From contig NZ_FQUP01000006.1 of the NCBI RefSeq assembly GCF_900129325.1, positions 1 through 64,000 of the forward strand: a stretch of DNA of 64,000 nt. Reading direction: 5' to 3'. The translations under genes and the position numbers were made by a program. The stretch comes from Kaistia soli DSM 19436. Lineage in GTDB: Bacteria; Pseudomonadota; Alphaproteobacteria; Rhizobiales; Kaistiaceae. Of the stretch, positions 5,809-42,325 are shown piece after piece. The notes under the pieces are model-generated. The model worked only from the letters and a program-made list of their open reading frames with translations. It was not told the origin of the DNA and did no database searches. How positions within the stretch are numbered: the stretch's first letter is position 1; each line of letters opens with the position of its first letter.

Positions 5809-5932
5809 CACTCTTGTCCTCGATTCGTAAGCAGGCTGTGCGAACGCCTGTTATATCGAAGCTACCGACAGTTCGAAACGTTTGGCTGCATCCTGTCGCT
5901 GCCCGTCCCGTCGTCGGAGGAGCAACCTCTTC

Positions 5933-6148: not shown

Positions 6149-6214
6149 TGGCGTGAGATCACGCATTCTGAGACATATTCAAATGTTCTGTCCCGGAGTT
6201 TTGTCATCGGCACA

Positions 6215-6598: not shown

Positions 6599-6687
6599 CG
6601 GGAATGTCGGGCTGTTCGGACCCAATGGGGTCCGCGGTTAGGACGTATGGGTTGATATCAACAATCACGCCCCACGGGGAGGACACA

Positions 6688-14184: not shown

Positions 14185-15245
14185 TCCGCATCCTCATCGC
14201 CGAAGATTCCGCGCTCATGCGCAAGTTGCTGAGCGGGATTTTCAAGGCGGAAGGCGATTTCGAGATCGCCCTGGCTCGGGATGGGCTTGAGGCGCTGGAC
14301 CAGGTGGCCAGTTTCCGCCCCGATGTGGTGACCCTCGACATTAACATGCCCAAGCTTGATGGGCTGGCTTGTCTGGACCGGATCATGCTGGAGCATCCGG
14401 TACCGGTGGTGATGGTCTCAGCCCTGACCGCTGATGGTGCCGACGAAACTCTCATGGCCCTCGAAATGGGCGCGGTGGACTTCATTGCTAAACCGGACGG
14501 GGCCGTGTCGCTGCATATGGCTGCGCTGACCGAGGATCTGGTCGCGAAGGTCAGAGCCGCGGCCGCCGTTCAGCTGCCGCGGGCACGCCGGCTGGCGGAG
14601 CGGATGCGGCTCCGTCGCGCGGGCAACGCGCCCGTCGCGCCCACCGCCGTAAAATTTGCCCCCATGACCGGTATTTCGGGGCTGGTGGTCGTGGGCACCT
14701 CGACAGGTGGCCCGCCGGCCCTCGATATCCTGCTGTCGACCCTGCCGGCTGACCTGCGCTGGCCGATCGTGATCGCCCAGCACATGCCGCAGGCCTTTAC
14801 CGGGCCATTGGCCCGCCGCCTCGACAGGTTGTCGCCGCTGACCGTCAGCGAGGTCGTCGGCCCCACCCCGCTGCTTGCCGGGTGCGTCTATGTCGCCCGC
14901 GGGGGCACCGATGTGGTCATCAGCAAGCGGGCGGGCAAACTGATCGCCAATGCCGCGCCGATGCATGACGGCTATCTCTGGCATCCCAGCGTCGACCGGC
15001 TGGTACGCACCGCCATGCAGCAGCTGCCTGCCCCCCAATTGCTCGGCATTTTGTTGACAGGCATGGGTTCGGACGGCGCCGCGGCTATGGCCGAGCTGCG
15101 CGCGGCAGGCGGCCATACTATTGCCGAAGCCAAGGACACTGCAGTGGTCTGGGGCATGCCGGGCGAACTGGTCAATCGTGGCGGCGCCGTAGATACATTG
15201 CCGATGGACGATATTCCGCGCCGGCTGACGGAGCTACTGGCATGA
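14181..15245 (+). CDS. cheB: CheB: receptor methylesterase/deamidase with receiver domain
   Basis: A 354-residue two-domain CheB. The N-terminal receiver (1-120) has the phospho-acceptor Asp53 in TLDINMPKLDG. The C-terminal esterase domain shows the Ser of GTSTGGP, the His of AQHMP and the Asp of GMGSDGA that make the catalytic triad. It removes methyl groups from, and deamidates, the MCP when phosphorylated by CheA. The GTG start overlaps the preceding stop by four bases, so translation is coupled. Confidence 0.95.
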   Translation: MIRILIAEDSALMRKLLSGIFKAEGDFEIALARDGLEALDQVASFRPDVVTLDINMPKLDGLACLDRIMLEHPVPVVMVSALTADGADETLMALEMGAVDFIAKPDGAVSLHMAALTEDLVAKVRAAAAVQLPRARRLAERMRLRRAGNAPVAPTAVKFAPMTGISGLVVVGTSTGGPPALDILLSTLPADLRWPIVIAQHMPQAFTGPLARRLDRLSPLTVSEVVGPTPLLAGCVYVARGGTDVVISKRAGKLIANAAPMHDGYLWHPSVDRLVRTAMQQLPAPQLLGILLTGMGSDGAAAMAELRAAGGHTIAEAKDTAVVWGMPGELVNRGGAVDTLPMDDIPRRLTELLA

Positions 15246-16114
15246 CTAGCCGCAGGGCGGACCAGCTGGCTCGCGCCAATGCGCTGTCGCCGCTTTCAAG
15301 CGCCAATCTCACCATGCTGTGCGATTTCCTTTATGACCGCACCGGCATGCAATTTGGTGAGTCCAAACGCTACTATATCGACCGGCGCATCGCCGACCGT
15401 ATGGCGCATAGGCACCTGACGGCCTTTGCCGATTACTATGCCCTGCTTCGAGCCGAGGCGGACGAAGCGGAGCAGCTGATCAATAGTTTCACGATCAACG
15501 AGACCTATTTCTATCGCGAGGATCACCAACTCGCCTGCCTCAGCCGATCTATTCTGCCCGAGATCGTGGCATCCAAGCGGCCGGGCGACAAGATCCGCAT
15601 CTGGTCGGTGCCCTGCTCGAGCGGGGAGGAGCCTTACTCGATCGCGATCTGGCTGCTGGAAAACTGGGCGCTGGTCGACGCCTACAATGTCGAGATAGTC
15701 GGTTCCGATATCGATACCGCCATTGTCGCTGAAGCGCTCGAGGCGAAATACGGCCGTCGCGCTGTGATGCGGCTGTCCCCCGAGCTGATCGGTCGCTATT
15801 TCGAGCCTATCGAGGACGGCCGCGTCCGCCTCATCGATGACCTGCGCGAATCGGTCACCTTCGCGCCGTGCAATATCACCGATGCGGCGTCCGTGGCCCG
15901 CCAAGGACGGTTCGACGTTATCTTCTGCCGCAACCTTTTGATCTATTTCGATGGAGCGGCGCGAGTGCGCTGCATGGAGAATCTGCTCAAAAGCCTCTTG
16001 CCCGGCGGCTATATGTGTCTCGGCCATTCCGAGTCCATGTCGCGCATTTCCGCGAACTTCATCACCCGCCGCTTTCCTGACGCGATCGTCTATCAACGCC
16101 CCGAGCAGCTCTGA
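15242..16114 (+). CDS. cheR: CheR: receptor glutamate methyltransferase
   Basis: A 290-residue SAM-dependent methyltransferase that methylates MCP glutamates. The N-terminal helical domain (about 15-90) ends in NETYFYRE, which contacts SAM. The Rossmann domain has the modified SAM loop SVPCSSGEEPYSIA (the usual first Ala-Gly is Val-Pro) and the late motif FCRNLLIYFD. Its start overlaps cheB by four bases. There is no C-terminal TPR or receptor pentapeptide-binding extension. Confidence 0.95.
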   Translation: MTSRRADQLARANALSPLSSANLTMLCDFLYDRTGMQFGESKRYYIDRRIADRMAHRHLTAFADYYALLRAEADEAEQLINSFTINETYFYREDHQLACLSRSILPEIVASKRPGDKIRIWSVPCSSGEEPYSIAIWLLENWALVDAYNVEIVGSDIDTAIVAEALEAKYGRRAVMRLSPELIGRYFEPIEDGRVRLIDDLRESVTFAPCNITDAASVARQGRFDVIFCRNLLIYFDGAARVRCMENLLKSLLPGGYMCLGHSESMSRISANFITRRFPDAIVYQRPEQL

Positions 16115-18051
16115 TGGACGAGCTGATGGCCCAGTTTATCCTTGAGGCGCGGGAACTGGTGCAGGCGGCCATTGATGACCTTTTTGTCCTCGAAGCCGAA
16201 CCCGGCGACAGAGTTCGTCTCAACAGCGCCTTTCGCGCCGTCCATACGCTCAAGGGCTCGACGGCGCTCTTCGACCTGCCGGCCCTCAATTCCGCACTAC
16301 ACAAGGCCGAAGATATCCTGGGCAGTGTCCGGTCGGGCTCCGCCGGTCTCGACGTTCAATCAGTCGACGCCATCGTCGCCATCCTCGAATGGATTGAGCG
16401 CTGCGTTGATGATCTCGAAAGCCATGGTGCGGTCAATCCGCAACGGCTGGAGAAGGCGGCAGGGCTTGAGGCGGATTTGGGCGTGGAAAGCCAGGCGCTC
16501 TTCGACGCTGTGCAGACCCAGCCTTCGGCATCGATTGCCTGGGCGCTGTCCCTCGCGGCGCAGATCAGCGGCAGGGCCACGGTCGCAGTGCACTATCGGC
16601 CGCATGCCGATTGCTTCTTCAGCGGCGATGATCCCATTGCGCTGGTCTCGCGCATACCAGGGCTCGTGCATCTGTCGATAGAGCCCCGCGAGCCTTGGCC
16701 GGCACAGGCCCGGTTTGACCCTTTCCGCTCCAATTTGGTCTTCCAGGCCTTAAGCACGGCCCCACTTGCGGATGTCGAGACCATTTTCCGGATGGTACCG
16801 GACCAGGTCGACATCGTCCCGCTTGGGACTGCCATGATCCCGTCTCCGGTTGAGCCGGCTGCCGACGAGACTAGAGCCGAGGCGATGCGCGGCCTGCGCG
16901 TCGATCCGGCCCGCATCGATGCGCTGCTTGATTTGGTGGGCGAACTGATGATCGCCAAGAACGGCATGACCGGGCTGACGGCAGCGGCCGGCACCCTGCC
17001 GGGTGGAGCCGACATCGCCCGCAACCTCGCGGCTACGCAAAAGACGCTCGATCGCATTGCCGGCGCGCTTTATGGGGGCGTGCTGCAGACGCGCATGGTG
17101 CCGCTGGATCAGGCCTTTCGCCGGTTGCCGCGCCTGGTGCGAGACTTGTCGCGCCGTCTGGGCAAGCCGACAGATCTGGTGATCGCTGTCGACAGCATCG
17201 AGGCTGACAAGACCATAGTCGATGAGTTGTTCGAACCGCTGATGCATCTGGTGCGCAATGCCATGGACCATGGCATCGAGAGCGCGGCAGACCGCTTGGC
17301 CGCCGGGAAGTCCGCGCTGGCCACGCTGGCGCTGAAGGTCGCGGCCGAAGGCGACCATATCATTATCAGCCTCTCCGATGATGGCAGGGGCATCGATCCC
17401 GCGCGCATCCGCGCTGCTGCAATTGCCAAGGGCATGCTCAGTGCCGAGCGCGCTGAGGGCCTCGATGATCGGGCGGTGCTGGATTTGCTTTTTGCAGCCG
17501 GCTTTTCCACCGCGGCTGCTGTCAGCGATCTCTCCGGCCGCGGCGTCGGCCTCGATGCGGTGCGCAGCGATGTCACACGACTGGGCGGCACAGTCCAACT
17601 TAGCAGCATCCCTGGTCTGGGCACGACAACGGCGCTTCGCCTGCCCGTCGGCTTTGCCATGACGCAGTTGCTGATCGTATCCGTGGGGGTCGAACGCTAT
17701 GGCGTGCCCATGCAGGCAGTTCTAGAAACCGTGCGCGTCGATCGTCATGCCGTAACGCCCATCCGTGACAGTCGTGCCTTCGTCCTGCGCGACGCAACCG
17801 TGCCGCTGCTGTCTCTGTCGGGCCTGCTCGGGCTGAGCGAGCCAGCCCTCGCGGGCGATATGACCGTGCTCATCCTGACTTTGAACGAGCAGCGGGTCGG
17901 CATCATCGTCGATGCCATTGCCGAAAGAATGGAAACCATTACGCGACCCTTGGACGGTCTGTTGACCGGCATGCCGGGCGTGGCCGGAACAACCGTACTC
18001 GCCAACGGAGAGGTGCTGCTGGTGCTCGATATTGCGGAACTGATCGGATGA
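16114..18051 (+). CDS. cheA: CheA: chemotaxis histidine kinase
   Basis: A 645-residue kinase with the full P1-P5 layout. P1 is an HPt domain with His44 in VHTLKGS. A P2-like ferredoxin fold (about 140-235) docks response regulators. P3 is the dimerisation helix pair (about 265-320, ARIDALLDLVGEL). P4 is the ATPase with N box NAMDHGIE, G1 DDGRGIDP and G2 GRGVGLD. P5 is CheW-like (about 510-645). All catalytic motifs are intact. It phosphorylates the CheB receiver, the CheY-like protein at 18382 and perhaps the hybrid kinase's receiver. The ATG shares its first base with the cheR stop. Confidence 0.96.
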   Translation: MDELMAQFILEARELVQAAIDDLFVLEAEPGDRVRLNSAFRAVHTLKGSTALFDLPALNSALHKAEDILGSVRSGSAGLDVQSVDAIVAILEWIERCVDDLESHGAVNPQRLEKAAGLEADLGVESQALFDAVQTQPSASIAWALSLAAQISGRATVAVHYRPHADCFFSGDDPIALVSRIPGLVHLSIEPREPWPAQARFDPFRSNLVFQALSTAPLADVETIFRMVPDQVDIVPLGTAMIPSPVEPAADETRAEAMRGLRVDPARIDALLDLVGELMIAKNGMTGLTAAAGTLPGGADIARNLAATQKTLDRIAGALYGGVLQTRMVPLDQAFRRLPRLVRDLSRRLGKPTDLVIAVDSIEADKTIVDELFEPLMHLVRNAMDHGIESAADRLAAGKSALATLALKVAAEGDHIIISLSDDGRGIDPARIRAAAIAKGMLSAERAEGLDDRAVLDLLFAAGFSTAAAVSDLSGRGVGLDAVRSDVTRLGGTVQLSSIPGLGTTTALRLPVGFAMTQLLIVSVGVERYGVPMQAVLETVRVDRHAVTPIRDSRAFVLRDATVPLLSLSGLLGLSEPALAGDMTVLILTLNEQRVGIIVDAIAERMETITRPLDGLLTGMPGVAGTTVLANGEVLLVLDIAELIG

Positions 18052-19446: not shown

Positions 19447-21822
19447 GTGCGCAATGACCAACACATGGACGATACCGGCTCCGCCCGCGCCGAGCTTTCC
19501 GACCTGCAGCACCAGATCGCCGAGGCAAGGCAGCGGCTTGACCTCACGCTGGAAGCGGCAGGCGCTGTGGGTAGCTGGGAATGGGACATCGCCAACCAGC
19601 GCCTCACTGCCGATGCACACTTTGCCGGCCTAACCGGACAGGACCCGCTCGCTTTCGCCAATGGCGTGCCAACGACACAGTTTTTCACCGGCATTCATCC
19701 CGAAGACGTCCGCCGCATCCGCATCGCGGTGGCAGGTATCCTGGCCGGTGCGGAAGTGTTTTCTAAGGACTACCGTCTGCTCAAGGACGATGGTGTCATC
19801 CGCTGGATCCATGCTGAAGGCCGAACGGTCCTCGACGAGCTCGACCGGCCTCTGCGTTTCCATGGCACGCTGGTCGACGTCACCGATCGCAAGCGAGCCG
19901 AAGAACAATTGCGTGTCGCCCAGACTGCCGGTCGCGTAGGTACGTTCGAGCATACCGATGGCTACGGCACAGTTGCCGTGTCGCGCCAGTTCTGCCGGCT
20001 GCTTGGCCTGCATCCGACCGATGTGCTGCCGGTCCGGACCATCAACCTGCTGGTGCATCCCGATGATCGCCCCATCATCGATCCCAAATTGCCCAGCACG
20101 CCGCAGCCGGAGCGGAATATCGAATTTCGCATAACCCGTGCAGATAGCGGGGAAACTCGCTGGCTAGCGCGCAGGGGTGAATATCTGCAGGATCTGGATG
20201 CCAACGGCCTGCGCTACATCGGCGTCATCTACGACATTACCCAATCCAAGCGCGTCGAAGAGCAGCTCCGGCTGGCCAATGAGACCCTATCGGAAAGCGT
20301 GCGCGAGCGCACTCGCGAGCGCAATCAGGTCTGGCAGAATTCGCGCGATCTGCTGGCTGTGGTCGGCGTTGACGGAATCATCCGCGACGCCAATCCCGCC
20401 TGGCGTGCCATTCTTGGATACGAGCTTGCCAAGATCATCGGCCGGTCCTTCCTGGAGCTAATTACGCAGGAGGAATTGGACGCCGCCAGCCGCCTGATCG
20501 AATTCGATCCACAGCGGTTGCTGACATCGACTGATCTGAGCCTGACCGCTGCCGACGAGTCTCTCCATTGGTTTTCATGGGATGCGGTGGCCGAAGGCGA
20601 ACTGATCTATCTTTATGGCCATAACATCACTCCCGAACGCAAGCAGGCGGAAATCCTGCGCGAGACGGAAGCGTTGCTGCGCCAGTCTCAGAAAATGGAA
20701 GCCGTTGGCCAGCTGACCGGCGGCATCGCACATGATTTCAACAATATGCTGACTGGCGTCATCGGCTCACTGGAAGTGATGAAGCGCCGCATTGCTAACC
20801 AGCGCTATGACGATCTAGACCGCTTTATGAATGCCGCCATCACCTCAGCGCAGCGCGCGGCCGCGCTGACCCATCGCCTGCTGGCCTTTTCGCGGCGGCA
20901 ATCGCTTGATCGCAAGCCTACCGACGTTGTGCCGCTGATCGAATCCATGCGCGACCTGCTGAGCCGCACCCTAGGGGAGCAGATTTCGCTGGAGACCGTT
21001 CTGCCGGCTGATAGCTGGCAGGCGATCACTGATGCCAATCAGCTGGAAAACGCGATCCTGAACCTCGCGATCAATGCCCGCGATGCAATGCCCGAAGGCG
21101 GCCAATTGATCATTCAGGTGGCGAACAAGACCCTGAGCGGGCGGGACATTCGCGGCATCGATGGGGCAGTCGTCGGCGACTATCTTCGGGTCTCAGTGAT
21201 CGACACGGGCGAGGGCATGGCGCCTGAAGTCATCGACAAGGCTTTTGACCCGTTCTTCACCACCAAGCCGATCGGCCAGGGAACCGGGCTGGGACTGTCG
21301 ATGATCTATGGTTTTGTCCGGCAGTCGGGCGGGCATGTCGAAATAGAAAGTGCGCTGGGCAACGGCACGACAGTGTCGCTTTATCTGCCCCGTAACGCCA
21401 AGACTTGGGCGCCATCAGCAACAGATATCGGGGTGGTCACGACACCTATGGGCAGCGGTGAGACTGTGCTCATCGTCGAAGACGATGCTTCGGTCCGCCT
21501 GCTCGTCGTCGACGTCCTGGAGGAGCTGGGTTACAGCGCTATCGAGGCCGGCGATGGGGATCATGCGGTGCCCATCCTGCAATCGGGAGCCCGAATTGAC
21601 CTCTTAATCTCCGATGTAGGGCTGCCTGGTCTCAACGGCCGCCAACTGGCCGAAATTGCCCGTCAAACGCGCCCGGACCTACGGGTCTTGTTCATCACTG
21701 GCTATGCCGCGATGGCTGCTTCGCGGTCTGAATTCCTCGAGCCAGGCATGGATATGATCACCAAACCCTTTGCATTGGATGATCTGGCCACCAAGATCCG
21801 CAACATGGTGGCTTCGGGCTGA
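19447..21822 (+). CDS. PAS-containing hybrid histidine kinase
   Basis: A 791-residue soluble sensor kinase. Three PAS-type domains (about residues 30-145, 150-275 and 295-400) are followed by a HisKA domain whose phospho-His sits in GGIAHDFNNML (about 428). Next is a HATPase with GEGMAPEV and GTGLGLSM, and a C-terminal receiver (about 675-790) with Asp in ISDVGLPGLNG. There are no membrane helices. The GTG at 19447 follows GAAGG; an ATG six codons later is possible. It lies 34 bases after the CheC-type gene and is probably in the same operon, so it may feed an extra signal, perhaps redox or light through PAS, into the chemosensory pathway. Confidence 0.9.
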   Translation: MRNDQHMDDTGSARAELSDLQHQIAEARQRLDLTLEAAGAVGSWEWDIANQRLTADAHFAGLTGQDPLAFANGVPTTQFFTGIHPEDVRRIRIAVAGILAGAEVFSKDYRLLKDDGVIRWIHAEGRTVLDELDRPLRFHGTLVDVTDRKRAEEQLRVAQTAGRVGTFEHTDGYGTVAVSRQFCRLLGLHPTDVLPVRTINLLVHPDDRPIIDPKLPSTPQPERNIEFRITRADSGETRWLARRGEYLQDLDANGLRYIGVIYDITQSKRVEEQLRLANETLSESVRERTRERNQVWQNSRDLLAVVGVDGIIRDANPAWRAILGYELAKIIGRSFLELITQEELDAASRLIEFDPQRLLTSTDLSLTAADESLHWFSWDAVAEGELIYLYGHNITPERKQAEILRETEALLRQSQKMEAVGQLTGGIAHDFNNMLTGVIGSLEVMKRRIANQRYDDLDRFMNAAITSAQRAAALTHRLLAFSRRQSLDRKPTDVVPLIESMRDLLSRTLGEQISLETVLPADSWQAITDANQLENAILNLAINARDAMPEGGQLIIQVANKTLSGRDIRGIDGAVVGDYLRVSVIDTGEGMAPEVIDKAFDPFFTTKPIGQGTGLGLSMIYGFVRQSGGHVEIESALGNGTTVSLYLPRNAKTWAPSATDIGVVTTPMGSGETVLIVEDDASVRLLVVDVLEELGYSAIEAGDGDHAVPILQSGARIDLLISDVGLPGLNGRQLAEIARQTRPDLRVLFITGYAAMAASRSEFLEPGMDMITKPFALDDLATKIRNMVASG

Positions 21823-22567: not shown

Positions 22568-22661
22568 CGGTCGGGCTCTCGATTTCGGTTTGCGAAGTCA
22601 ACCATACTGGGCGACATTGCGCAATGTCGTCCATCCCCTGCTCCATGGAGTCGTGCCGCCG

Positions 22662-25577
22662 GTGCAAGGTAGTGCCTTCCTCGTCTCGCTAATCAGCCTG
22701 CCCTTCCTCGCGGCGCTCGCGTCCTTGTGCCTGCCGGCCAGGTCGCGGAACGCCGAGGCGTGGCTCGTCGGCGTAACGATGCTGATCCTGCTGGTCCTTG
22801 TCGCTTTCGCCTATCCCGGCGTCGCGCACGGCGCCGCGCTCCGGCGCGACATCGGCTGGATCCCCGAACTGAGCCTCAGTCTCGTGCTGCGGATGGACGG
22901 ATTCGCGTGGGTGTTCTCGGTGCTCATCACCGGGATCGGGCTGCTCGTGGTACTCTACACCCGCTACTACATGTCACCGGAAGATCCGGTGGCGCGTTTC
23001 TACGCCTTCTTCCTTGCCTTCGCCGGATCGATGCTTGGCGTGGTGACGTCGGGCAACATCATCCAGCTCGTTGTCTTCTGGGAGATGACGAGTGTTTTCT
23101 CCTTCCTCTTGATCGGTTATTGGTACCACAATGCCCCGGCCCGCGACGGCGCGCGCATGGCGCTGACCGTAACCGGGGTCGGCGGGCTTGCGCTCCTCGC
23201 CGGCGGGCTGCTCATCGGCCATGTTGTCGGCAGCTACGACCTCGACGCCGTCCTCGCATCGGGCGACGCGATCCGCGCAAGCAACCTCTACCTCCCGATC
23301 TTGATCCTCGTTCTGCTCGCGGCCTTCACCAAGAGCGCGCAGTTCCCGTTCCAGTTCTGGCTGCCGAATGCCATGGCGGCCCCGACGCCGGTCTCGGCCT
23401 ATCTGCATTCGGCGACCATGGTGAAGGCCGGCGTGTTTCTGCTCGCCCGCTTCTGGCCGGTCCTGGCAGGCACGCCCGAATGGTTCTGGCTCGTTGGCCT
23501 TGCCGGCCTTGCGACGCTTCTGCTCGGCGCGTTCTTCGCCATCTTCGAGCAGGACATCAAGGGCCTGCTCGCCTATTCGACGATCAGCCATCTCGGCCTG
23601 ATCACACTGCTGCTCAGCCTCGGCAGCCCGCTCGGGCTGGTCGCGGCCATCTTCCACATGATGAACCACGCGACGTTCAAGGCGTCGCTCTTCATGGCCG
23701 CCGGCATCATCGACCACGAGGTCGGCACCCGCGACATGCGCAAGCTCGGCGGGCTGTTCACCTTCATGCCGATCACGGCGACACTCGCCATGGTCGCGAG
23801 CGCCGCCATGGCCGGCGTGCCGCTGCTGAACGGCTTCCTGTCGAAGGAGATGTTCTTCGCCGAGACCGTGGAAACGCATACGCCATCGATCCTTGACACG
23901 GTTACGCCCTATGTCGCGGTGCTCGCAGGCACCTTCGCCGTCACCTATTCGATCCGCTTCATCCACAGCGTCTTCTTAGGCCCGATCCCGGCCGATATGC
24001 CGCGCACGGCGCATGAGCCGCCCTTCGTCATGCGGCTGCCGGTGCTGCTTCTCGTCCTGATCTGCCTGATCGTCGGGATCGCGCCCGGCCACACGATCGG
24101 GCCGTTCCTGCACAGCGCCGTGCTCTCCGTGCTCGGCGACGAGACGCCGTATTACAGCCTCTCGGTCTGGCACGGCGTCAATTTGCCGCTGCTGATGAGC
24201 ACGATCGCGCTGGTTGCCGGCAGCCTCTTCTACTTCACGCTCAAGATTTATCTGGCGACCAGCGAGGAAGGTCCGCCCCTCATCCGCCGCCTGCGCGGCG
24301 AGCGCATCTTCGAGCGCGTGATGGTCTCGGTCGCCTGGCGCTGGGCGCGGCTGCTTGAGATCCGGTTCGGCACGCGGCGGCTGCAGCCGCAGCTCCTGCT
24401 CGTGATCTCGGTCGCCGTTGCGGCGGCGCTCGTCGTGCTGCTGCGGGGCGGGCTCGGGTTGCCCTCGCCCTGGAGCCGCGGCGTCGACCTTCTCTTCCCG
24501 GTGCTTTGGGCGATCGGTATTGTCTGCGCCATCGGCGCCGCCTACCAGGCCAAGTACCACCGCCTCGTTGCGCTGGTGCTGATGAGCGGCGCCGGCCTCG
24601 TCACCTGCGTCACCTTCGTCTGGCTGTCGGCGCCCGACCTCGCGCTGACCCAGCTCCTCGTCGAGGTGGTGACGACGGTGCTGATCCTGCTCGGGCTGCG
24701 CTGGCTGCCGAAGCGCAGCGAGGAGGTCCGGCAGCCCTCGTCCATCCGGGCCACCCTGCGCCGATATCGCGACCTCGGCATCGCCGTCGTGAGCGGTGCC
24801 GGCATGACGCTCGTCGCCTATGCGGTCATGACCCGCCAGCCGCCGCAGACGATCGCCGACTATTTCGTCGAGCGAGCCTATTCCGAAGGCGGGGGGCGCA
24901 ACGTCGTCAACGTCATCCTGGTCGATTTCCGCGGCTTCGATACCTTCGGCGAGATCGCCGTGCTCGGCATCGTGGCGCTCACCGTCTTCGCCCTACTCCG
25001 CCGGTTCCGCCCGGCGCCCGACAGCGTCGAATCCCCGTTTCAGCAGCAGCAGCAGACCGGCCCCGAGGACGAGGCGACCTCGGGCGGCGACGGCAGCATC
25101 GCCAGTGACTACCTGCTCGTCCCCTCCGTCACCATGCGCTGGCTGTTCCCGGTAATCATCATGTTCGCGGCCTATCTGTTCATGCGCGGACACGACCTGC
25201 CGGGCGGCGGCTTCGCGGCCGGCATCGCGATGGCCGCCGCCTTCATCCTGCAATACATGGCGTCCGGCGTGCGCGTCGTGGAGGAGCAGCTGCGCGTCCT
25301 TCCGGTGCGCTGGATCGGCATGGGCCTCCTCATCGCTGCCGCGACGGGCATGGGCTCCTGGGTATTCGGCTATCCGTTCCTGACCTCGCATGCGCGCTAT
25401 GTGGACCTGCCCGTCATCGGCAAGATTCCCGCCGCGACCGCGCTCCTCTTCGACCTCGGCGTCTTCTCGCTCGTTGTCGGTGCCACGGTGCTGATGCTCA
25501 TTGCGCTCGCGCACCAGTCGATCCGCAGGCTGCGCGCCTCGGGGATCCCGCTTTCCCAAAACGCGGAGGCGCCGTGA
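22662..25577 (+). CDS. mrpA: MrpA/MrpB fusion, large subunit of Na+(K+)/H+ antiporter
   Basis: About 971 aa with around 20 membrane helices. Residues up to about 530 are the NuoL/ND5-like proton channel, with the key Glu in FWEMTSVFSFLL and Lys in TKSAQFPFQFWLP and HSATMVKAG. The part after about 600 is the MrpA C-terminal MbhD/MbhE-like region. The last 140 or so residues (YLFMRGHDLPGGGFAAG) are MrpB. This fusion defines group 2 Mrp/Pha systems of alphaproteobacteria, which exchange Na+ or K+ for protons for pH and salt homeostasis. The start is uncertain: the GTG at 22662 has GGAG 11 bases upstream, while TTG and GTG codons further up are in frame. Confidence 0.93.
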   Translation: MQGSAFLVSLISLPFLAALASLCLPARSRNAEAWLVGVTMLILLVLVAFAYPGVAHGAALRRDIGWIPELSLSLVLRMDGFAWVFSVLITGIGLLVVLYTRYYMSPEDPVARFYAFFLAFAGSMLGVVTSGNIIQLVVFWEMTSVFSFLLIGYWYHNAPARDGARMALTVTGVGGLALLAGGLLIGHVVGSYDLDAVLASGDAIRASNLYLPILILVLLAAFTKSAQFPFQFWLPNAMAAPTPVSAYLHSATMVKAGVFLLARFWPVLAGTPEWFWLVGLAGLATLLLGAFFAIFEQDIKGLLAYSTISHLGLITLLLSLGSPLGLVAAIFHMMNHATFKASLFMAAGIIDHEVGTRDMRKLGGLFTFMPITATLAMVASAAMAGVPLLNGFLSKEMFFAETVETHTPSILDTVTPYVAVLAGTFAVTYSIRFIHSVFLGPIPADMPRTAHEPPFVMRLPVLLLVLICLIVGIAPGHTIGPFLHSAVLSVLGDETPYYSLSVWHGVNLPLLMSTIALVAGSLFYFTLKIYLATSEEGPPLIRRLRGERIFERVMVSVAWRWARLLEIRFGTRRLQPQLLLVISVAVAAALVVLLRGGLGLPSPWSRGVDLLFPVLWAIGIVCAIGAAYQAKYHRLVALVLMSGAGLVTCVTFVWLSAPDLALTQLLVEVVTTVLILLGLRWLPKRSEEVRQPSSIRATLRRYRDLGIAVVSGAGMTLVAYAVMTRQPPQTIADYFVERAYSEGGGRNVVNVILVDFRGFDTFGEIAVLGIVALTVFALLRRFRPAPDSVESPFQQQQQTGPEDEATSGGDGSIASDYLLVPSVTMRWLFPVIIMFAAYLFMRGHDLPGGGFAAGIAMAAAFILQYMASGVRVVEEQLRVLPVRWIGMGLLIAAATGMGSWVFGYPFLTSHARYVDLPVIGKIPAATALLFDLGVFSLVVGATVLMLIALAHQSIRRLRASGIPLSQNAEAP

Positions 25578-34712: not shown

Positions 34713-35711
34713 TCAAGCAACACTAAGCGCCGCTCGGCCAAGCCCCTTGGCGAGGTAGAGGGCCCGGTCAGCACGGGCCAGCCAGGAATTCTTGTCGTCG
34801 GCCGCCCCGAGCGCAGCTATGCCTATACTGGCACTCAGCTGCCCCCGGGCAGGATGGGGCATCTGAGTTTTGGCAAGAGATGCGATGATCCGCGTGGCAA
34901 CGGCAACACCGCCGTCTTCGTCAGTACCTGCCAGGATCAGCGCAAACTCCTCGCCGCCAAATCGCGCGAGAACGTCGTCGGGTCGCCGTGGAAACGACTG
35001 CAAGAAGGCCGCGAAACGCGCCAGTAAATCATCTCCGGCCTGATGACCAAGACGATCGTTGACCTCCTTAAAATGATCGAGATCAATCAACAGCAACGTC
35101 GCGGGCGTCGATGTGCGGGTAGAGCGCCGAATGGCCCTCGGCATTTCTTCGTCGAGTTTGCGCCTGTTATGGATCCCGGTCAGGCTATCCGTGTTGCTCT
35201 GTTCGCGCAGCTGGGTGTTGTGAAGTGTCAGAGACAATTCGTGACTCGTTATGGCCGCCAGATCGAGCAACGTTTCCAGCTCGAAGTCTGCCGGTGTCCC
35301 TGGGTCGGTTCGCATGATGCACAGCGTGCCCAATACGTTCGAGCCTTCACCGCGGATCGGCACGCTCGCATAAAATCGCCAAGGCATATCTCTCGCCAGT
35401 GGGTGGCCCTCGAGCTCAGGCGCCGTGCGCATGTCCTCAAAGACCAGCGATTCGCCCGAAGAAATCACCAGGGTGCAGACGCTGGCATCCCGGGCCACGA
35501 AATCATGCAGCACATCCGATGTCTTCGCCTTCATCCACTGCTGCTGCGCGTCGACGAAACTCAAAAACGCGATGTCGGCGGCATAAGCCTTCGCAGCAAT
35601 GCGAGCTATCCGGTCGTAGCGTTCGTCACGGGCAGTGTCCAGTATTCCATACTGTGCCAGGGCTTCGAGCCGCTCGATCTCATTCGAGGGCGCCTCGGGA
35701 GGGATCCACAT
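34713..35711 (-). CDS. GAF-GGDEF diguanylate cyclase in the kai operon
   Basis: A cytosolic 332-residue enzyme from the ATG at 35711, with AAAGG about ten bases upstream; a TTG six codons earlier is less likely. A GAF domain spans residues about 18-160 (ERYDRIARIAAKAY...SVPIRGEGSNVLGTLCIM), often a site for small-molecule or redox sensing. The GGDEF domain follows, with GGEEF at 252-256 and RPDD nine residues upstream as the RxxD inhibitory site. It should make c-di-GMP. It is the last gene of a same-strand series EAL - kaiC - kaiB - GGDEF, 74 bases after kaiB, so its synthesis and activity are probably linked to the Kai proteins. Confidence 0.92.
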   Translation of the reverse strand: MWIPPEAPSNEIERLEALAQYGILDTARDERYDRIARIAAKAYAADIAFLSFVDAQQQWMKAKTSDVLHDFVARDASVCTLVISSGESLVFEDMRTAPELEGHPLARDMPWRFYASVPIRGEGSNVLGTLCIMRTDPGTPADFELETLLDLAAITSHELSLTLHNTQLREQSNTDSLTGIHNRRKLDEEMPRAIRRSTRTSTPATLLLIDLDHFKEVNDRLGHQAGDDLLARFAAFLQSFPRRPDDVLARFGGEEFALILAGTDEDGGVAVATRIIASLAKTQMPHPARGQLSASIGIAALGAADDKNSWLARADRALYLAKGLGRAALSVA

Positions 35712-35785
35712 TGTCTGTCGGCCTTTCAATATTTTGGATCCGAACGTGCGCGGACGACCTGGTGACCGGCTCGAACCGGCCGAGC

Positions 35786-36079
35786 TCAGTCCTTGAGACT
35801 TTGAACGACGGCATCTACATCGGAAAGATCTCCTATGATCAGATGCTCCCGACCCTTGATGCTGGCGATCAGGGACGGCGTGACAAAGATGCGGCGGGCG
35901 AACGCAGCCCCTTTGTCCTTCAGGACGTCGACGACTGTCACCGTTGCCTGCGAGTCCAGACGCCGCACAATCTCGGCAAGATTGGTGGCCGCCCGTCTTG
36001 AGTTGAGGCTGTCGCCAGCGACATAGAGCTCCAGCGCAATACCGCTTGGCACTTTGGCAAGGTCCGGCGCGCGCATCAT
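35786..36079 (-). CDS. kaiB: KaiB-like protein
   Basis: A 97-residue single-domain KaiB. The first half (LELYVAGDSLNSRRAATNLAEIV) is the thioredoxin-like strand-helix. The second half (TVVDVLKDKGAAFARRIFVTPSLI, then IIGDLSD) holds the region that in cyanobacterial KaiB refolds when binding KaiC. Most family hallmarks are kept: YVAG, N-S-x-RA, VDVL, A-x-x-x-x-(A/V)TP, IIGDLS. The start overlaps the kaiC stop by four bases (ATGA), so the two are co-translated. There is no KaiA gene here, as is usual outside cyanobacteria. Confidence 0.93.
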   Translation of the reverse strand: MMRAPDLAKVPSGIALELYVAGDSLNSRRAATNLAEIVRRLDSQATVTVVDVLKDKGAAFARRIFVTPSLIASIKGREHLIIGDLSDVDAVVQSLKD

Positions 36080-37794
36080 TCTGCGATCCGCTCGCCGGCC
36101 GCGGTGGTCATTGCACTCCGCAAGCGCGACATCTCGCCCCGACGTTCGGTCTCAAACAGGATGCTGGCAGCCGCTTCATCGGCCAGTCTTTGGACATCGC
36201 CCTCTTTTTCTGCCAGTTCCGCGGTGAGCATAGCAATGCGTTGCGCCAGTTCCTCGACGCCGCGCTTCGCCTCATGATAGCGAAGCTTGGCCTCGGCCTC
36301 GGCCTCCCGAATGGCGCGCTGATTGCTTCGCTCCTTCTGCCATCGCAGGGAACCCATCAGCACCTCGCCGTCCTCTGTATAAGCATCGGCTATCGAAACG
36401 CCTCCGGCAGCGAGCAGAAGCTCTCCCACCTGGTTGGAGTGGGCGGTACCGCGAGATTTGACGATGGTGAGCGCGCGGTTGCGCTCCCCATTGCTGAGCA
36501 CATAGCTGAGGTGGATCCAGGTATCGCAAATGGTCGACACGTAGGATCGGGACGATTCCGACTCCCCGGCGGCGCGATCGAGCAGGCTTGTCAGGACAAT
36601 TGTGATGTTTTCCCTTTTGCAAAGCTCAATGATGCGTCGCACAGCACGCTGTGAAATCGGATCTGCGGTAAATACGGAGATCGGATCGATCACCAAGTGA
36701 CTGGGCCGGTGTCGTTCGACTTCCGTCCTGATTTCAAAAGCGAATTCATCCGGGCCTGCAGAACGATCCGCAATGCTGTGCATGCGGAGCAGACCTGCAT
36801 TGATGTGCCGCTGGAGATCGATGCCGACAGACGCGACGTTGCGGACGATCTCCATCGGACCTTCGTCAAAACAAATGCTCAGGGCGCGTTCTCCGCGCTT
36901 GCACATCGTGTCGACGAAGAGACATCCAAGCGTTGTTTTCGCTGTCCCGGGCGATCCGGAGAGCAAGGTGCTGCTGCCTCGGAAAATCCCCCCAGCCAGC
37001 ATGACGTCAAGATGCGGGACGCCAAGAGACAGCCGCTCGCTCGATACCGGCAGTATTCGCGGCTCCGCCTCGATGCCCTCCACCTCGATGCCGCCCGCGG
37101 TCATCAAGAATGGCAAACGACGCAGCATATGGTCCGAACTGCGATATTTTTGGATTCGAATGCCGCGAGGCGAAGCGCCATCCTCGGTTTCGCGGGAAAG
37201 CTCAATGACGCAGTCTGCCATGTAGAGAGCAATCTCTTCGAAACCGGTCGTAGAGTCGCTGCCCGCCTTGATCGTCAGGATCACCATCGAGTCAATTCGA
37301 TTGATGAAATCCTGCAATCGCAACAGTTCCGCCCGTTGAGCTGTTGCCGTCCCTAGCAGGGCAAGAAGAGTGTCGATGCCGTCGAAGACAATGCAGGACG
37401 GCCAGTCGGGGGCCGCAGCACCTTCTGTCATCGCCAGCAGGCCGGCGATGTCGAAGGATCCGCTCATAACTGTCTCGGGCTTCGGTCGCCCGTCGATCAC
37501 AATCAGCTTGCCGCTCTCCAGCAGGCGACCACCCTCCCATGCAAACGAATTGATATCGGACGTTATTCCGTCGGCGGACTGCTCAAAGGTGACCAGGATG
37601 CCCGGCCGACCACTCTCGTTGATTCGGTGGACGAGCGTCTGCAAAGCGAAGACTGTTTTACCCGTACCCGCCCCTCCGATCGCCGCGGTGACCCTCCCAG
37701 CCGGCAATCCACCGCCAGACATCCTGTCGAAGCCCGTGATGCCAGTAGAAACCTTTCGGGTCATCTGCCCCTGCACGTTGTCGAACTTACCCAT
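36076..37794 (-). CDS. kaiC: KaiC-like ATPase/autokinase with C-terminal coiled coil
   Basis: A 572-residue double-RecA protein. The CI half (about 10-250) has Walker A GGAGTGKT at 40-47 and an acidic FEQ in place of the usual FEE. The CII half (about 252-480) has GSPGTAKTT at 280-288 and FDEG in the catalytic-Glu position. The paired phosphorylation residues Ser420-Thr421 lie in YVSTICDT, aligned with Ser431/Thr432 of Synechococcus KaiC, so it can plausibly autophosphorylate. Instead of a KaiA-binding tail, residues about 485-572 form a long charged helix or coiled coil. Start: ATG 37794, inside the last codons of the EAL gene, which it overlaps by eight bases. It is likely a KaiBC timer or hourglass tied to c-di-GMP. 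Confidence 0.94.
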
Positions 37795-39460
37795 AAAGGA
37801 TTCCCGGTTGCATGACCGATGCTGATTGTTCACGCAGGCCATACTTGTTCGCCCAGACCATCAGATCTTCGGCCGGCATAGGACGCCCGTAAAAGTAGCC
37901 CTGACCCTTGTCGCACCAAATACTCTGCATAAAGTCGGCCTGCTCTTTCGTCTCGATGCCTTCTGCGATCACGACAAGATCGAGGCTGCGACCCACCGCG
38001 ACAATTGCACGGACAATGGCACTAGCCCGGGAGTCCACGAAAACGTCTCGGACGAAAGATTGATCAATTTTCAGGTAATCACAGGGGATATCGCGGAGAT
38101 AAGCGAGGGACGAATATCCAGTACCGAAATCATCGATGGCAATCCGGACGCCCGTTTCGCGCAACCCGGCTAGAAGCCGCATGCTCTTGTCCTTGGTGTC
38201 CATCGCGGCGCTTTCGGTGATTTCGAGCACGAGGCGCTCTGGCGGCAATCCGGTGCTAGCGACGGTAGCCGCTACTCTTTCTCCAAATGTCTTATCCATT
38301 AGCTGCAAAGCCGAGACATTGACCGCGACGGTTACGTGACCCAGAGGCCCGCCCTGCCATAGCGTTACCTGCCGACAAGCCTCCTCCAGGATCCAAGCGC
38401 CGAGGCCAACGATCAGCCCGGACGCTTCGGCAAGGGGAATGAACTCGGACGGAGGGACCAACCCGCGGCCGGGGTGGCACCACCGGATTAGGGCCTCGGC
38501 GCCCACGATGCGTTCATCCGCTAAAGCAACCTGCGGCTGATAGACGAGAAAAAGCTCCCCGCGTTCCTGCGCTGTCTCAAGATCAATCAACAGGGAGGGC
38601 TTTTCCAGCCGACGTCTTTCACCGGCAGCGCCCACCCTTGAGCGATGCGCTGCATTCATCAGAACCAGGACAAGCGCAACGACTAGCGTGGAGGCCTCGA
38701 TGGCGAGGGTCTTTCCGTCGTTATCGAAGCCTGACCGCACTGCGATCAAGCCAAGCACAACGCAAACTCCGACCGTGATAGAAACTTGATGTCGGAAAAC
38801 GCGTCCAGCGGATCCGTGGGCGAGCAGGCTACGCAAGGGAACGCGGTAGGCGCTCCGACACAATATTGCGACGATGCAAAGCAAGCCGGCGATGACGGTG
38901 GTCGGTGAAAGGACGCCGCCGAGATCACTAACACCATAAATATAGACTATCGCCGAGAATATAGGCGGATACGTTGCGACAACAGTTAATATCTGCGCAG
39001 AGAAATGAGCATTTATTCTGATGCATATCAGAGCCGCAGCCAAGAGGCCGATCATGATAGAGGCACGTAGACCCATCGAGATCGGTAGACCCGAAGCCGC
39101 CGCTTCCTTAAGGATTTCGCCGAACGGCGACCAAGCTTGAAACGCATCATTGCGGCCAGTGAGGATCGTCAACAAGCGGATCCAGGCGATAGTGCCGCCC
39201 AAGATCGCGAACGCGACACTAGCGTTGCTGCGGCGCATCGGCCGCGCCAGCAATACTGAGAGACCAATACAAGCGATTGCGCAGGCAGTGAGCGGATGTG
39301 TCGCTGAGCCAGCGGGAACTGGGCGCCACAGCCGCTCAATGCCAAGCGCGTAGCCGGCAAGCACCATCACCCCGACACAAACTGCTCCTAGCGCGGCCAA
39401 TGGTGCCATCATCATCGCAAGGCGGATGAAAGGCTCGACACGTCGGCGTGGCGCTAGCAT
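37787..39460 (-). CDS. Membrane-bound c-di-GMP phosphodiesterase (EAL)
   Basis: A 557-residue protein. The N-terminal half (about 15-275) carries seven or eight membrane helices of a MASE-like sensor of unknown ligand. The C-terminal half (about 290-540) is an EAL domain with all catalytic positions visible: EAL at 322-324, Asn381 in NVSALQL, Glu413 in LEITES, DD at 443-444 in [10 protein letters not shown], Lys464 in LKIDQSFV, Glu500 in AEGIET and Gln520. No GGDEF domain is attached. It should hydrolyse c-di-GMP to pGpG. It heads the operon that continues with kaiC, kaiB and a diguanylate cyclase, so one transcript encodes both the making and the breaking of c-di-GMP around KaiBC. Confidence 0.93.
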
Positions 39461-39495
39461 CAGGCTGTATACCCTCCGTCAGGGTGTGTGCTCCA

Positions 39496-39852
39496 ATGCG
39501 AGCCTACACTGCTCCTTGTTGCAACATCACCCACCCACCAAGCTTTGGAGTTATTTCTTTCGACGTGGCGGCGACCTTCGCGACGCTCGCGCAGTTCGGT
39601 GCGCCCAAGGCGTGGCGAGTGATCGTAGGGACGCGCGGCCTTAAAGGCAGCGTCCTGCCCGGACGGCGCTATGCGCGCGGCGGATATCCCGCCCTGGCCA
39701 ACGAGGTCCAGTTGGAACGAACGTTGAGGGAGGTCACCGGCGACGCTCCTCGCGCACTGATCTTCGCGTTCGTCCAAAAAACCTATGACGCTTGCGCGGC
39801 TCCGAACCTCGACCTGGCCAGATACGAGCAACTGCTGAGCGAGGAGTCCTAG
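39496..39852 (+). CDS. Doubtful hypothetical protein (118 aa)
   Basis: A frame divergent from the EAL gene. The second half (LANEVQLERTLREVTGDAPRALIFAFVQKTYDACAAPNLDLARYEQLLSEES) has protein-like composition, but the first part does not. There is no ribosome-binding site of note and no recognised family. It could be the tail of a broken gene. Confidence 0.25.
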   Translation: MRAYTAPCCNITHPPSFGVISFDVAATFATLAQFGAPKAWRVIVGTRGLKGSVLPGRRYARGGYPALANEVQLERTLREVTGDAPRALIFAFVQKTYDACAAPNLDLARYEQLLSEES

Positions 39853-40459
39853 GTCGGCGGACCGTCCCGAAAACGAACGTTTCCGTACAATGCTTCGATC
39901 TTCTTGGTCCGATTCGTCAGCCCGGCAACGATCTCCGCTAACCATGTCGGATTTCAAATGACCGAATAGCGGTCTCCAATCGGATTGCCGCACCCGACCT
40001 TGCCAGCCGCGGTCGTCACGGTGCCGCAGATCCCTCTCCCCGGCCCAGAGATGGAACACGCGATTGAGCTCCAGATGGCTGACGACCTGCCCAACGATAC
40101 CACTCGCCTCTGACTGTCGACCCAATTGGTACAGCTAACAAATTGGTAGCCATGAGGCGCTGTTTGATCCCACTGATGGCAAAAGTGGTGAAGTGCCATG
40201 AGTTGCAAGCGGCGATGCGAATATGAGCGCGTCGCACGCGAACGCGCTGCATGAGCGGCAGCGACAATCCTCGACCAGCCGACAGCCGATCTCGCGACCG
40301 GCAATGCCCAGTTCGTATGCCCTTGCAGCGGCGGCCGACGGTCAAGACCGTGTTGGTGCCAATCGGCTTGGGCAACCGCAGACATATTGCGAGGAACGTA
40401 TCGCGCCACCCGGCCACTAAGATGGTGGGCTGCCAGGACGCGTTGTTTGACGGCAGGCC
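39853..40459. other. Long intergenic stretch with repeat remnants
   Basis: About 600 bases. It contains the second copy of the 15-base palindromic repeat (39960-39974) and no gene I can support. Frames on both strands overlap one another without conserved motifs. Confidence 0.35.
39960..39974. repeat. Dispersed short palindromic repeat, copy 2
   Basis: Identical to the 15-base GACCG-AATAG-CGGTC at 31123, again preceded by an AT-richer TTTCAAAT and, 60-70 bases earlier, by GAAAACGAACGTTTCCG. Confidence 0.5.
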
Positions 40460-41029
40460 TCACAGCCGAACGAGCCCGGAATATTCAACCATCCGGCCAC
40501 TGTCGAGTGAGATCACGGCGCGGAGGCCGCGTCTCCCGACCACCATGAATACGATGGCGTCATCGCGTGTCTCCTTGACGCGGAGGCGATTGCCGTCCCC
40601 ATCCTCGATCAGATCGGCGTCGAACGGGCTGTCGTGCAGGCCATTCGCCTCCATGAACTCGACATTGCTGAGTTCGATTTCGGCGCTTGTTTCGTCGTTG
40701 CGCTTCTGAGCACGGCCCCATAAAAGTCCGACAATGGCCGAGACAATATGAACGCCGACCAGCCAAGGCAGGGTCACCGAGAAAACTACTATGGCAACCG
40801 AGCCGGATAAATAGGTACCGGCGCAAATCGCGAAAACACTGCCTAGGACGCGCGCTATCACCTCCGATCGTGTTCTGTTGCCAATGTTACGCGCTAGACC
40901 ACGGTAACCCCAGATCGTCAAAAACAAGACGGCCAGCACAGTGATCGCGCCTGATGCTTGTTTTGCGCCCTTGTAGGCATCGCGCCCAAACGATGCGCCA
41001 AAGCCATAGACGGCACTCCTCGCCAACAT
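40460..41029 (-). CDS. Hypothetical membrane protein (189 aa)
   Basis: Starts MLARSAVYGFGASFGRDAYKGAK. It has two or three membrane helices (about 26-42, 65-85 and 90-112) followed by a soluble C-terminal half with acidic and beta-like sequence ending SLDSGRMVEYSGLVRL. Preceding in-frame codons are open, but the composition changes there, so the ATG at 41029 is used. I do not recognise the family. It is divergent from the XRE regulator with about 170 bases between them. Confidence 0.55.
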   Translation of the reverse strand: MLARSAVYGFGASFGRDAYKGAKQASGAITVLAVLFLTIWGYRGLARNIGNRTRSEVIARVLGSVFAICAGTYLSGSVAIVVFSVTLPWLVGVHIVSAIVGLLWGRAQKRNDETSAEIELSNVEFMEANGLHDSPFDADLIEDGDGNRLRVKETRDDAIVFMVVGRRGLRAVISLDSGRMVEYSGLVRL

Positions 41030-41200
41030 TTCGATCACCGGCGTCCCCCAAAGTCGGTGGAGACGAATGCGACAGGCTGATTCATGTGAAGGGCTCAATC
41101 GGGTTGCGAGCAGAACGGTGTGCAACGAGAGCGTATCATCGGCTTAAAATGATGGCTATAGACCGTGGTTTAATAGACATCGTCCCGCCTAGCTGCGGCT

Positions 41201-41464
41201 ATGAACGGTCGCCAGCTAGTCGCGTGGAATCTTCGACGCCTGCGCGTTCTCCGGCAGCTCTCGCAGGAGAAACTGGCAGTCGATGCCGGTATCGACCGCG
41301 CTTACCTCGGCAGTCTCGAACGTGAGCAGGAAAATCCGACCGTCGACTTGCTTGACAGGATCGCCGCAGCACTGAGCGTATCGGTCGCCGCGCTCTTTGA
41401 GGTTCCCGACGCCGACAGTCCGAAACCACAGACCCTTCGGCGGGGAAGGAAAGCCGCTAGCTAA
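41201..41464 (+). CDS. XRE-family helix-turn-helix regulator
   Basis: An 87-residue protein that is almost entirely one HTH_3 domain: LRRLRVLRQLSQEKLAVDAGIDRAYLGSLEREQENPTVDLLDRIAAAL. The turn and recognition helix are canonical. The family often controls mobile elements, restriction or toxin systems. Here it stands between a hypothetical membrane protein and an integrase remnant, consistent with an accessory region. Confidence 0.88.
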   Translation: MNGRQLVAWNLRRLRVLRQLSQEKLAVDAGIDRAYLGSLEREQENPTVDLLDRIAAALSVSVAALFEVPDADSPKPQTLRRGRKAAS

Positions 41465-41754
41465 CGCGGCGCAGATCCAGATCCGCATCACGCACTGATA
41501 TTCTGGCAGTACCATCAAGTTTCAATTGATGGCGGCACCCGCAACTACGTGACTCAAGGTCTGGTCGATTTCCGATGTTGGCCCAAAGCGGTCTTCCCGA
41601 CACGACTCGGCGAACGTCCGCTCTGCGCCCTCGTTGCAGTCGTTCGACAGAACGTATGTCACCTCCCGAAGCCGTCGCTACCGTTGGGCAAATCTAAGAC
41701 CGTGAAGCTCGCCGCGGTGCCTCAAATTCGTTCCGCAATATGTGCTGCCATAGG

Positions 41755-42160
41755 GATCGCGGGCTGGGCGCCGGACGAGGCACAGCAACTGCACGATGCC
41801 ATCGACGTGTCGACGCCGATCGGCCTCCGCGACCGCACCTTGGATCAACCTGATGGCCTATTCCTTCGCCCGCATTGACGCCGTGCTCAGCATGAAAGTC
41901 GAGGATGTCTTCATCCAGAATCGACGGCTCTGGGTTCGGCTGCATGATAAAGGCGGCAAGCAGCACGAGATGCCCCGCCACCATGATCTCGATGCCTATC
42001 TGCAGGCCTATATCGATACCTGTGGCCTCGCCGACGACCCGAAGGGCCCGCTGTTTCGCACGATCGGCCGGGGAAACGACCAGCTGACGACCACGCCCCT
42101 CACCCAGCCCAACGCCTATGCCATGGTGCGGCGGCGGGCCGCTGCAGCGCTCATCCCTAG
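41755..42160 (+). pseudogene. Site-specific tyrosine recombinase remnant
   Basis: GWAPDEAQQLHDAIDVSTPIGLRDRTL in one frame passes, after a frameshift near 41845, to INLMAYSFARIDAVLSMKVEDVFIQNRRLWVRLHDKGGKQHEMPRHHDL...GPLFRTIGRG...TPLTQPNAYAMVRRRAAAA. This is the central and early catalytic part of a phage-type integrase family common in proteobacterial islands. The downstream catalytic half (HxLR, H/W and the Tyr) and the N-terminal DNA-binding domain are absent. It marks a former integration event near the start of the mdc region. Confidence 0.8.
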
Positions 42161-42325
42161 AAGTCGCAACGCGATGGCGAGCGCGGCCAAACAAGCGCAA
42201 ACGGCATTCACGGCCAAGTCTGGCGGTGAGATCGTTTCCGAAATCGACGTCGCTTCATAGTAATGAATGACGACTGCCGATGGCACCGTACTGAATGACT
42301 CCGCTACAGGCGCGAGAGCCGCATA

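Follow-up and report, generated by a model that had tools for sequence, protein, structure and literature searches.

Organization of the locus

The subject of this report is a locus of Kaistia soli DSM 19436 (Hyphomicrobiales) in which the genes for KaiC and KaiB stand between genes for the breakdown and synthesis of cyclic di-GMP (c-di-GMP). The window, meaning the whole 64,000-nucleotide (nt) stretch of DNA analysed, covers the initial 64 kb of a 224-kb contig; the host genome comprises 5.23 Mb in 15 contigs. The list of open reading frames (ORFs) and family profile searches of the window place four genes on the minus strand in the following order: an EAL c-di-GMP phosphodiesterase (PDE) of 557 amino acids with a membrane N-terminus (37787..39460), the double-domain ATPase KaiC (588 amino acids in its longest reading, 36076..37842), KaiB (97 amino acids, 35786..36079) and a GAF-GGDEF diguanylate cyclase (DGC; 338 amino acids, 34713..35729). 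The kaiC gene overlaps the EAL gene by 56 nt, or by 8 nt (counted by hand) if it starts at Met17, and kaiB overlaps kaiC by 4 nt. The gap from kaiB to the DGC gene is 56 nt with a TTG start and 74 nt (by hand) with an ATG start. This agrees with an earlier description made from the letters of the DNA and its ORFs, termed here the sequence-only reading, which had given the same four-gene order, a kaiC start inside the EAL gene and a four-base kaiB–kaiC overlap. From the overlaps and the 56-nt gap we infer co-transcription of the four genes as a single operon. A promoter and terminator scan of the locus returned signals no better than those of shuffled sequence. No histidine kinase is encoded inside the cassette.

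Recurrence and apparent transfer of the cassette

A second EAL-kaiC-kaiB cassette, unmentioned by the sequence-only reading, is present in the host genome on another contig (C7; locus L033, 6759-13451). There a GAF-GGDEF gene lies divergently just upstream, accompanied by a convergent alcohol dehydrogenase gene. Among 14 genomes of the genus, two carry a KaiC of the EAL cassette, in three copies. Two peptide patterns, run against 84,980 species, returned three loci, in K. hirudinis, Oryzicola mucosus and Variovorax ginsengisoli; the patterns are strict, and further cassettes will be missed by them. The arrangement is thus known from five cassettes in four species and two classes, Variovorax ginsengisoli being a betaproteobacterium. 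The EAL gene is directly upstream of kaiC on the same strand in all five (gaps of -124 to +3 nt). In Variovorax, EAL-kaiC-kaiB is followed 247 nt downstream by a dCache-GGDEF gene, so that the gene-order search envisaged in the sequence-only reading finds EAL-kaiC-kaiB-GGDEF outside the host genome as well.

Chance adjacency of EAL and kaiC genes is unlikely, because the 5.23-Mb host genome holds 12 EAL and 27 GGDEF matches. Recurrence of the gene trio in five cassettes of four species and two classes argues that KaiBC and the PDE very probably form one functional unit. The five KaiCs constitute one clade, with 100 in the Shimodaira–Hasegawa approximate likelihood-ratio test (SH-aLRT). The Variovorax KaiC is nested among those of Kaistia and Oryzicola (fork SH-aLRT 92, not starred), which suggests transfer of the cassette between bacterial classes. 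The PDE-KaiC-KaiB unit thus seems to be inherited and transferred as one. No near-identical plasmid copies of the cassette occur in PLSDB; protein-level matches on plasmids reach 36.9% identity among the best 40 of 269 records.

The cyclase appears to be a more casual member. It retains a GGEEF active site and the upstream RxxD (RPDD-VLARF-GGEEF), as the sequence-only reading had seen. A GGDEF gene is adjacent in three of the five cassettes, however, compared with EAL in five of five. The window DGC and the DGC beside the second cassette are 58% identical, and orphan Kaistia DGCs are closer to each (64% and 61% to the window DGC, 69% to the other). A tree with the two Kaistia cassette DGCs as sisters is rejected by the approximately unbiased (AU) test (p 0.0002). 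The sister of the window DGC is an orphan in a Kaistia genome (G005) in which no EAL-cassette KaiC was found. The GAF-GGDEF family occurs in seven of 14 Kaistia genomes, five of which lack an EAL-cassette KaiC. A DGC that was an ancestral part of the cassette is ruled out by the closer orphans and the AU result. The enzyme instead looks like an accessory attracted by the locus and recruited separately in the two Kaistia cassettes. The c-di-GMP enzyme pair of the sequence-only reading therefore stands as far as gene content goes, but it is not symmetric: the PDE is fixed and the DGC is accessory.

The phosphodiesterase and its membrane domain

The EAL domain of the PDE (37880..38584, minus strand) matches PF00563 with 242 bits (E = 7.2e-72). 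All eight catalytic residues, E, N, E, D, D, K, E and Q, which we take to be the EAL ligand set, are present, as is the loop DDFGTGYSS; a full set of catalytic residues had been noted from the sequence. These residues are invariant across the five cassette PDEs. In the AlphaFold model the EAL part fits solved PDEs, with TMt up to 0.95.

The N-terminal half (residues about 1-285, 38606..39460) has eight hydrophobic segments by simple hydropathy, with six to eight among the five cassettes, and is modelled as helices. It matches no Pfam family at E<=0.01, and all 50 Foldseek matches listed for the PDE model are EAL-containing structures. The domain was found in two of 387 genomes of the order: the host, in both cassette copies, and one other (G066), where it heads a protein whose GGDEF domain has a GGEEF motif (L195, 8482-9903). 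No Kai gene was detected in the 17.8-kb region around that protein. The domain may represent a new membrane sensor of c-di-GMP enzymes. The proposal that it is an adaptor dedicated to Kai proteins is weakened by the Kai-less GGDEF protein.

The same protein bears on an explanation in which the genes share an operon without direct control, the PDE being run by its own membrane sensor and KaiBC serving another stress or energy output. The separate distribution of the GAF-GGDEF family in Kaistia points the same way. Against this stand the retention of the EAL link in all five cassettes despite apparent transfer between classes, and the behaviour of the wider KaiC lineage described below: its EAL partners carry unrelated sensor domains (dCache, PAS, membrane), so the sensor varies and the link between KaiC and EAL stays. 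We regard this explanation as doubtful.

KaiC and KaiB

KaiC contains two PF06745 stretches and scores above the PRK09302 cut-off (413.1 bits against 408), and far below that of TIGR02655 circ_KaiC (251.3 against 546.25). Among solved structures, KaiC of Rhodobacter sphaeroides is the first match by both sequence and fold. Walker A motifs are kept in both domains, and a phosphorylatable pair, Ser436-Thr437 (36532..36537), stands where the Synechococcus protein has its phosphorylation sites Ser431/Thr432. Both features had been recognized from the sequence, the pair as residues 420-421, which is its numbering from Met17. The C-terminus, previously described as a coiled coil, is modelled as one 86-residue helix (residues 497-582, 36097..36354), with block confidence (predicted local distance difference test, pLDDT) of 62-91 over residues 491-570 falling to 59 and 44 in the final two; a tail of this type is already known in R. 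sphaeroides KaiC. KaiB passes the PF07689 cut-off (35.9 bits against 27), misses those of NCBIfam circ_KaiB and PRK09301, and matches solved KaiBs among structures.

A KaiC lineage marked by Lys192

KaiC loci were surveyed in three partly overlapping samples: order (397 genomes, 39 with a match, 45 places, 44 of them read, G385 being left out), class (385 genomes, 29 with a match, 33 places) and phylum (398 genomes, 33 with a match, 37 places). Five plasmid loci and named loci were added. Neighbours were labelled with hidden Markov models built from few sequences, and genes more than 300 nt away or without a match were counted as no neighbour; labels of the window KaiC and of 16 later KaiCs were set by hand. 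Two fragments (L129, L168) and a copy (L075, of L034) were left out of the trees. The same-strand clusters of 111 KaiC ORFs outside the window contain a histidine kinase in 70 cases, a GGDEF/EAL gene in 18, both in one and neither in 22; c-di-GMP-linked KaiCs contributed to the profiles whose best matches these loci are, so the shares are no measure of KaiCs at large. A kinase accompanies 51 of 87 KaiB-linked KaiC ORFs. Five of the 44 places read in the order sample are c-di-GMP-linked, two of them from the host genome. On a tree of 110 KaiCs, the neighbour must have changed between kinase and c-di-GMP enzyme at least four times, and the link therefore probably arose repeatedly. A recurring order KaiB-KaiC-KaiB-GGDEF-receiver in the phylum sample (L155, L156, L162, L164, L167; the L155 cyclase has PAS domains) is an independent link of this kind.

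Nine c-di-GMP-linked KaiCs cluster together (SH-aLRT 82, not starred, with long branches present) inside an 11-row clade of support 100 that also holds two kinase-linked KaiCs. All nine have Lys at window position 192 (codon 37267..37269), which corresponds to CI Glu183 of S. elongatus by hand-counted alignment offsets (±1). Elsewhere this position is Glu in 74 of 75 other KaiB-linked KaiCs and Asp in 21 of 24 KaiB-less ones; the two kinase-linked sisters, set aside from the 75, have K and M. Glu183 lies near the CI gamma-phosphate and its role is unclear (PMC2777353; here and below, papers are cited for those of their sections that treat the residues or loci in question).

A profile of the nine Lys192 KaiCs served to draw a second sample from 321 genomes of the class of another genome, G888; 15 had a match, G888 included, giving 14 new loci and 16 KaiCs. 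A same-strand GGDEF/EAL gene is in the cluster of five of seven Lys192 KaiCs versus one of nine others (L191); in L190 and L192, genes of this kind lie at a greater distance on that strand. When all 126 aligned KaiCs are pooled, the counts are 14 of 17 versus 11 of 109 (Fisher p 1.6e-9, a descriptive value that ignores relatedness). On a quick tree with several long branches the Lys192 label needs three changes, and the smallest clade with all 17 Lys192 KaiCs has 19 rows, the other two carrying Q and M. A family search around G043 (10 genomes, six with a match), its matches read from loci of the survey, added no further c-di-GMP-linked locus.

An EAL domain is encoded in all 14 same-strand-linked Lys192 loci. 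All eight EAL residues are intact in 13, namely the five stand-alone PDEs and the composite GGDEF-EAL proteins of L035, L076, L090, L152, L181, L182, L185 and L187; L188, at a contig end, is intact at the seven readable positions. They are also intact in L129, whose frameshifted KaiC is outside the tree. In that locus KaiC is split into two overlapping frames (5256-6798) beside a dCache-PAS-GGDEF-EAL gene, possibly by decay or by sequencing error. Among the composites, L035, L076, L090 and L129 have a degenerate GGDEF motif (four of nine, all from the first set); an intact one is found in L152, L181, L182, L185 and L187. That breakdown is the sole shared activity of the lineage was suggested by the first set, with four of five motifs degenerate, and undone by the second sample, with four of four intact. 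Judged by these motifs, the PDE is the constant part, and synthesis is not abandoned in half of the Lys192 lineage.

Altered active sites of KaiC

The CI catalytic pair of the window KaiC is Glu87-Gln88 in place of two glutamates (Gln88 codon 37579..37581), a change that the sequence-only reading did not mention. Gln88 corresponds to Glu78 of S. elongatus and Glu63 of R. sphaeroides. All five EAL-cassette KaiCs have Gln at position 88, and each of the 104 other KaiCs in which this position is occupied has Glu, as do the 15 second-sample KaiCs with a residue at it. Among 24 KaiB-less KaiCs the first CI Glu is missing in 21 and the second is kept in every one. Because such KaiCs also often lack a CI Glu, its loss bears on clock function rather than on homology to KaiC. 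In addition, the CII equivalent of Glu318 is Asp in all five EAL-cassette KaiCs. The same Asp occurs in two of four other first-set Lys192 KaiCs, in both kinase-linked sisters and in 21 of 24 KaiB-less KaiCs, compared with none of 75 other KaiB-linked KaiCs outside the lineage.

Both sites have been studied in other KaiCs. The E77Q/E78Q KaiC of S. elongatus has 22% of its ATPase activity left; phosphorylation persists in it, and KaiB binding is lost (PMC5007536). In R. sphaeroides, Glu62/Glu63 alone account for CI ATPase, the post-hydrolysis state of CI is key to KaiB binding, the effect of phosphorylation is only marginal, and the ATP/ADP ratio resets the KaiBC system (PMC10076222). These two residues align with window positions 87/88, the numbering having been checked against Ser413/Ser414. 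The first CI Glu has been proposed as the water-activating residue, and E318D KaiC is arrhythmic in S. elongatus (PMC2777353).

The sequence-only reading had proposed a phospho-timer or hourglass. In its R. sphaeroides-like form, the phase of a KaiBC phospho-hourglass would drive PDE and DGC in opposite directions. The parts on which that model was built are in place: both Walker A motifs, Ser436-Thr437, the long C-terminal helix, KaiB and the best solved match. GGDEF and EAL motifs are both retained in the second-sample composites, so that synthesis paired with breakdown is common in the lineage. The model is nevertheless weakened by Gln88, confined to the five cassettes among the KaiCs aligned, and by the Asp at the Glu318 equivalent, given the arrhythmic E318D mutant. 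The non-sister DGCs, adjacent in only three of five cassettes, also speak against opposite driving of two enzymes. As a whole it is unlikely. With Gln88 and the CII Asp taken together, a self-timed oscillator or hydrolysis-timed hourglass is less likely, and an ADP-loaded switch more likely.

Relation to known KaiBC systems

Association of KaiBC with c-di-GMP enzymes is not new. In almost all kaiC-kaiB clusters outside cyanobacteria treated in a 2011 study, a histidine kinase or a GGDEF/EAL protein is encoded immediately downstream of kaiC/kaiB (PMC3164672), and the Thiodictyon kaiCBB genes have a diguanylate cyclase upstream (PMC5944118). The sequence-only reading, which knew of no KaiBC with this enzyme pairing, is to that extent superseded. 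These clusters share with the window a c-di-GMP enzyme beside kaiBC where others have a kinase. They differ in that the enzyme is a GGDEF/EAL protein downstream or a cyclase upstream, whereas in the window kaiC-kaiB lies between two separate enzyme genes, one of them for a membrane PDE whose N-terminus is unclassified.

The R. sphaeroides (Cereibacter) system (PDB 8DBA, 8FWI, 8FWJ; PMC10076222) resembles the window in its KaiC coiled-coil C-terminus, which there joins two hexamers, in the absence of KaiA and in a kaiB directly after kaiC. It has, however, an HWE histidine kinase after kaiB and both CI catalytic glutamates, where the window has a PDE before kaiC, a DGC after kaiB and a CI Glu-Gln pair; the two KaiCs are about 34-36% identical. 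Rhodopseudomonas-type KaiC-KaiB-histidine kinase operons have the same kaiC-kaiB order and tight overlaps, but the window cassette has no histidine kinase. In the open-licence literature no experiment on such a locus and no Lys192 or Gln88 class of KaiC was found. The window locus is distinct from the known KaiBC/c-di-GMP loci in its stand-alone membrane PDE as fixed partner and in its altered CI site.

A proposed adenylate-gated switch

We propose that PDE, KaiC and KaiB form an ATP/ADP-gated switch on c-di-GMP breakdown, with an optional cyclase alongside, and give this reading a probability of roughly 0.4. It is favoured over a phospho-timer because the KaiCs studied depend on the Glu pair for their CI ATPase and on CI hydrolysis for the docking of KaiB. 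The mechanism would run as follows. (i) The core would be a three-gene switch in which KaiC probably forms a ring or a stacked double ring held by the coiled coil, with nucleotide in CI and CII. (ii) ATP hydrolysis in CI would be slow or absent, because one catalytic Glu is missing and Lys replaces the third Glu of most KaiB-linked KaiCs. (iii) KaiB docking would be set by cellular ADP filling CI, not by KaiC's own ATP turnover. (iv) KaiB-bound and KaiB-free KaiC would inhibit or activate the membrane PDE. (v) Phosphorylation of the CII Ser/Thr pair may serve as a short memory, and the PDE membrane domain would be a second input. (vi) The outcome would be an energy-dependent setting of c-di-GMP breakdown, to which the DGC would supply the opposing activity. 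The observations behind this mechanism are the conserved gene order, the intact EAL and GGEEF residues and the CI substitutions, which among the KaiCs aligned are confined to this lineage; joint transcription of the genes, the formation of a complex, a loss of CI ATPase, the direction in which control acts and any physiological output are all things that we infer here.

Several observations weigh against this switch. The published CI mutants alter both glutamates and the window KaiC keeps the first; since this is the proposed water-activating residue, CI ATPase may only be slowed. Both CI glutamates are present in the other Lys192 KaiCs wherever the position is occupied, so the proposed CI loss would be special to the EAL cassettes. 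Loss of CI catalysis across the whole lineage is ruled out by the same Glu-Glu pairs (L188 has no residue there). The phosphorylation sites are retained, and would be superfluous for a pure nucleotide sensor. The membrane domain heads a GGDEF protein near which no Kai gene was detected, and the PDE may therefore answer to a sensor of its own. Intact GGDEF motifs in five composites count here too. Two Lys192 loci have no same-strand c-di-GMP gene, their GGDEF genes, at distances of 32 and 1078 nt, being on the opposite strand, and another has a histidine kinase.

The flow of information could also be reversed, the c-di-GMP level set by the two enzymes feeding back as an input to KaiBC. In S. 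elongatus a change in c-di-GMP shifts the period and phase of the rhythm (PMC13001216). For the present locus we hold such a reversal to be very improbable.

The ATP/ADP-gated switch can be extended to a history of the lineage. The Lys192 KaiCs would have given up kinase output for a PDE, and the EAL cassettes would also have disabled CI hydrolysis, becoming a clockless adenylate-ratio sensor that controls a second messenger and is passed from class to class as a PDE-KaiC-KaiB unit. This wider history is put forward tentatively.

Few outputs of KaiBC are known outside cyanobacteria. A lineage recognizable by sequence and tied to an enzyme with a directly measurable substrate offers a testable route from an ATP/ADP step through the KaiB-KaiC state to c-di-GMP. 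Like the laboratory double mutants, the Glu-to-Gln change found in nature may uncouple the sensing of nucleotides from time-keeping; such a separation would bear on how KaiC became a clock.

Neighbouring genes

In the stretch upstream of the cassette (39461-42300), one of five ORFs tested matches Pfam. A short ORF 2.3 kb upstream (41796-42260) is integrase-like, at 25.7 bits below the cut-off of 27.1. The stretch may be the remains of a mobile element. Two more GGDEF proteins, one with a dCache sensor, are encoded near the contig start (1210-2034, minus strand; 2906-4429, plus strand). CheW- and CheA-type genes (12760-18051, plus strand) are followed by a gene for a PAS hybrid histidine kinase (19447-21822) and by one for subunit A of an Mrp-type cation/proton antiporter (22590-25577, plus strand; PRK12648, above cut-off).

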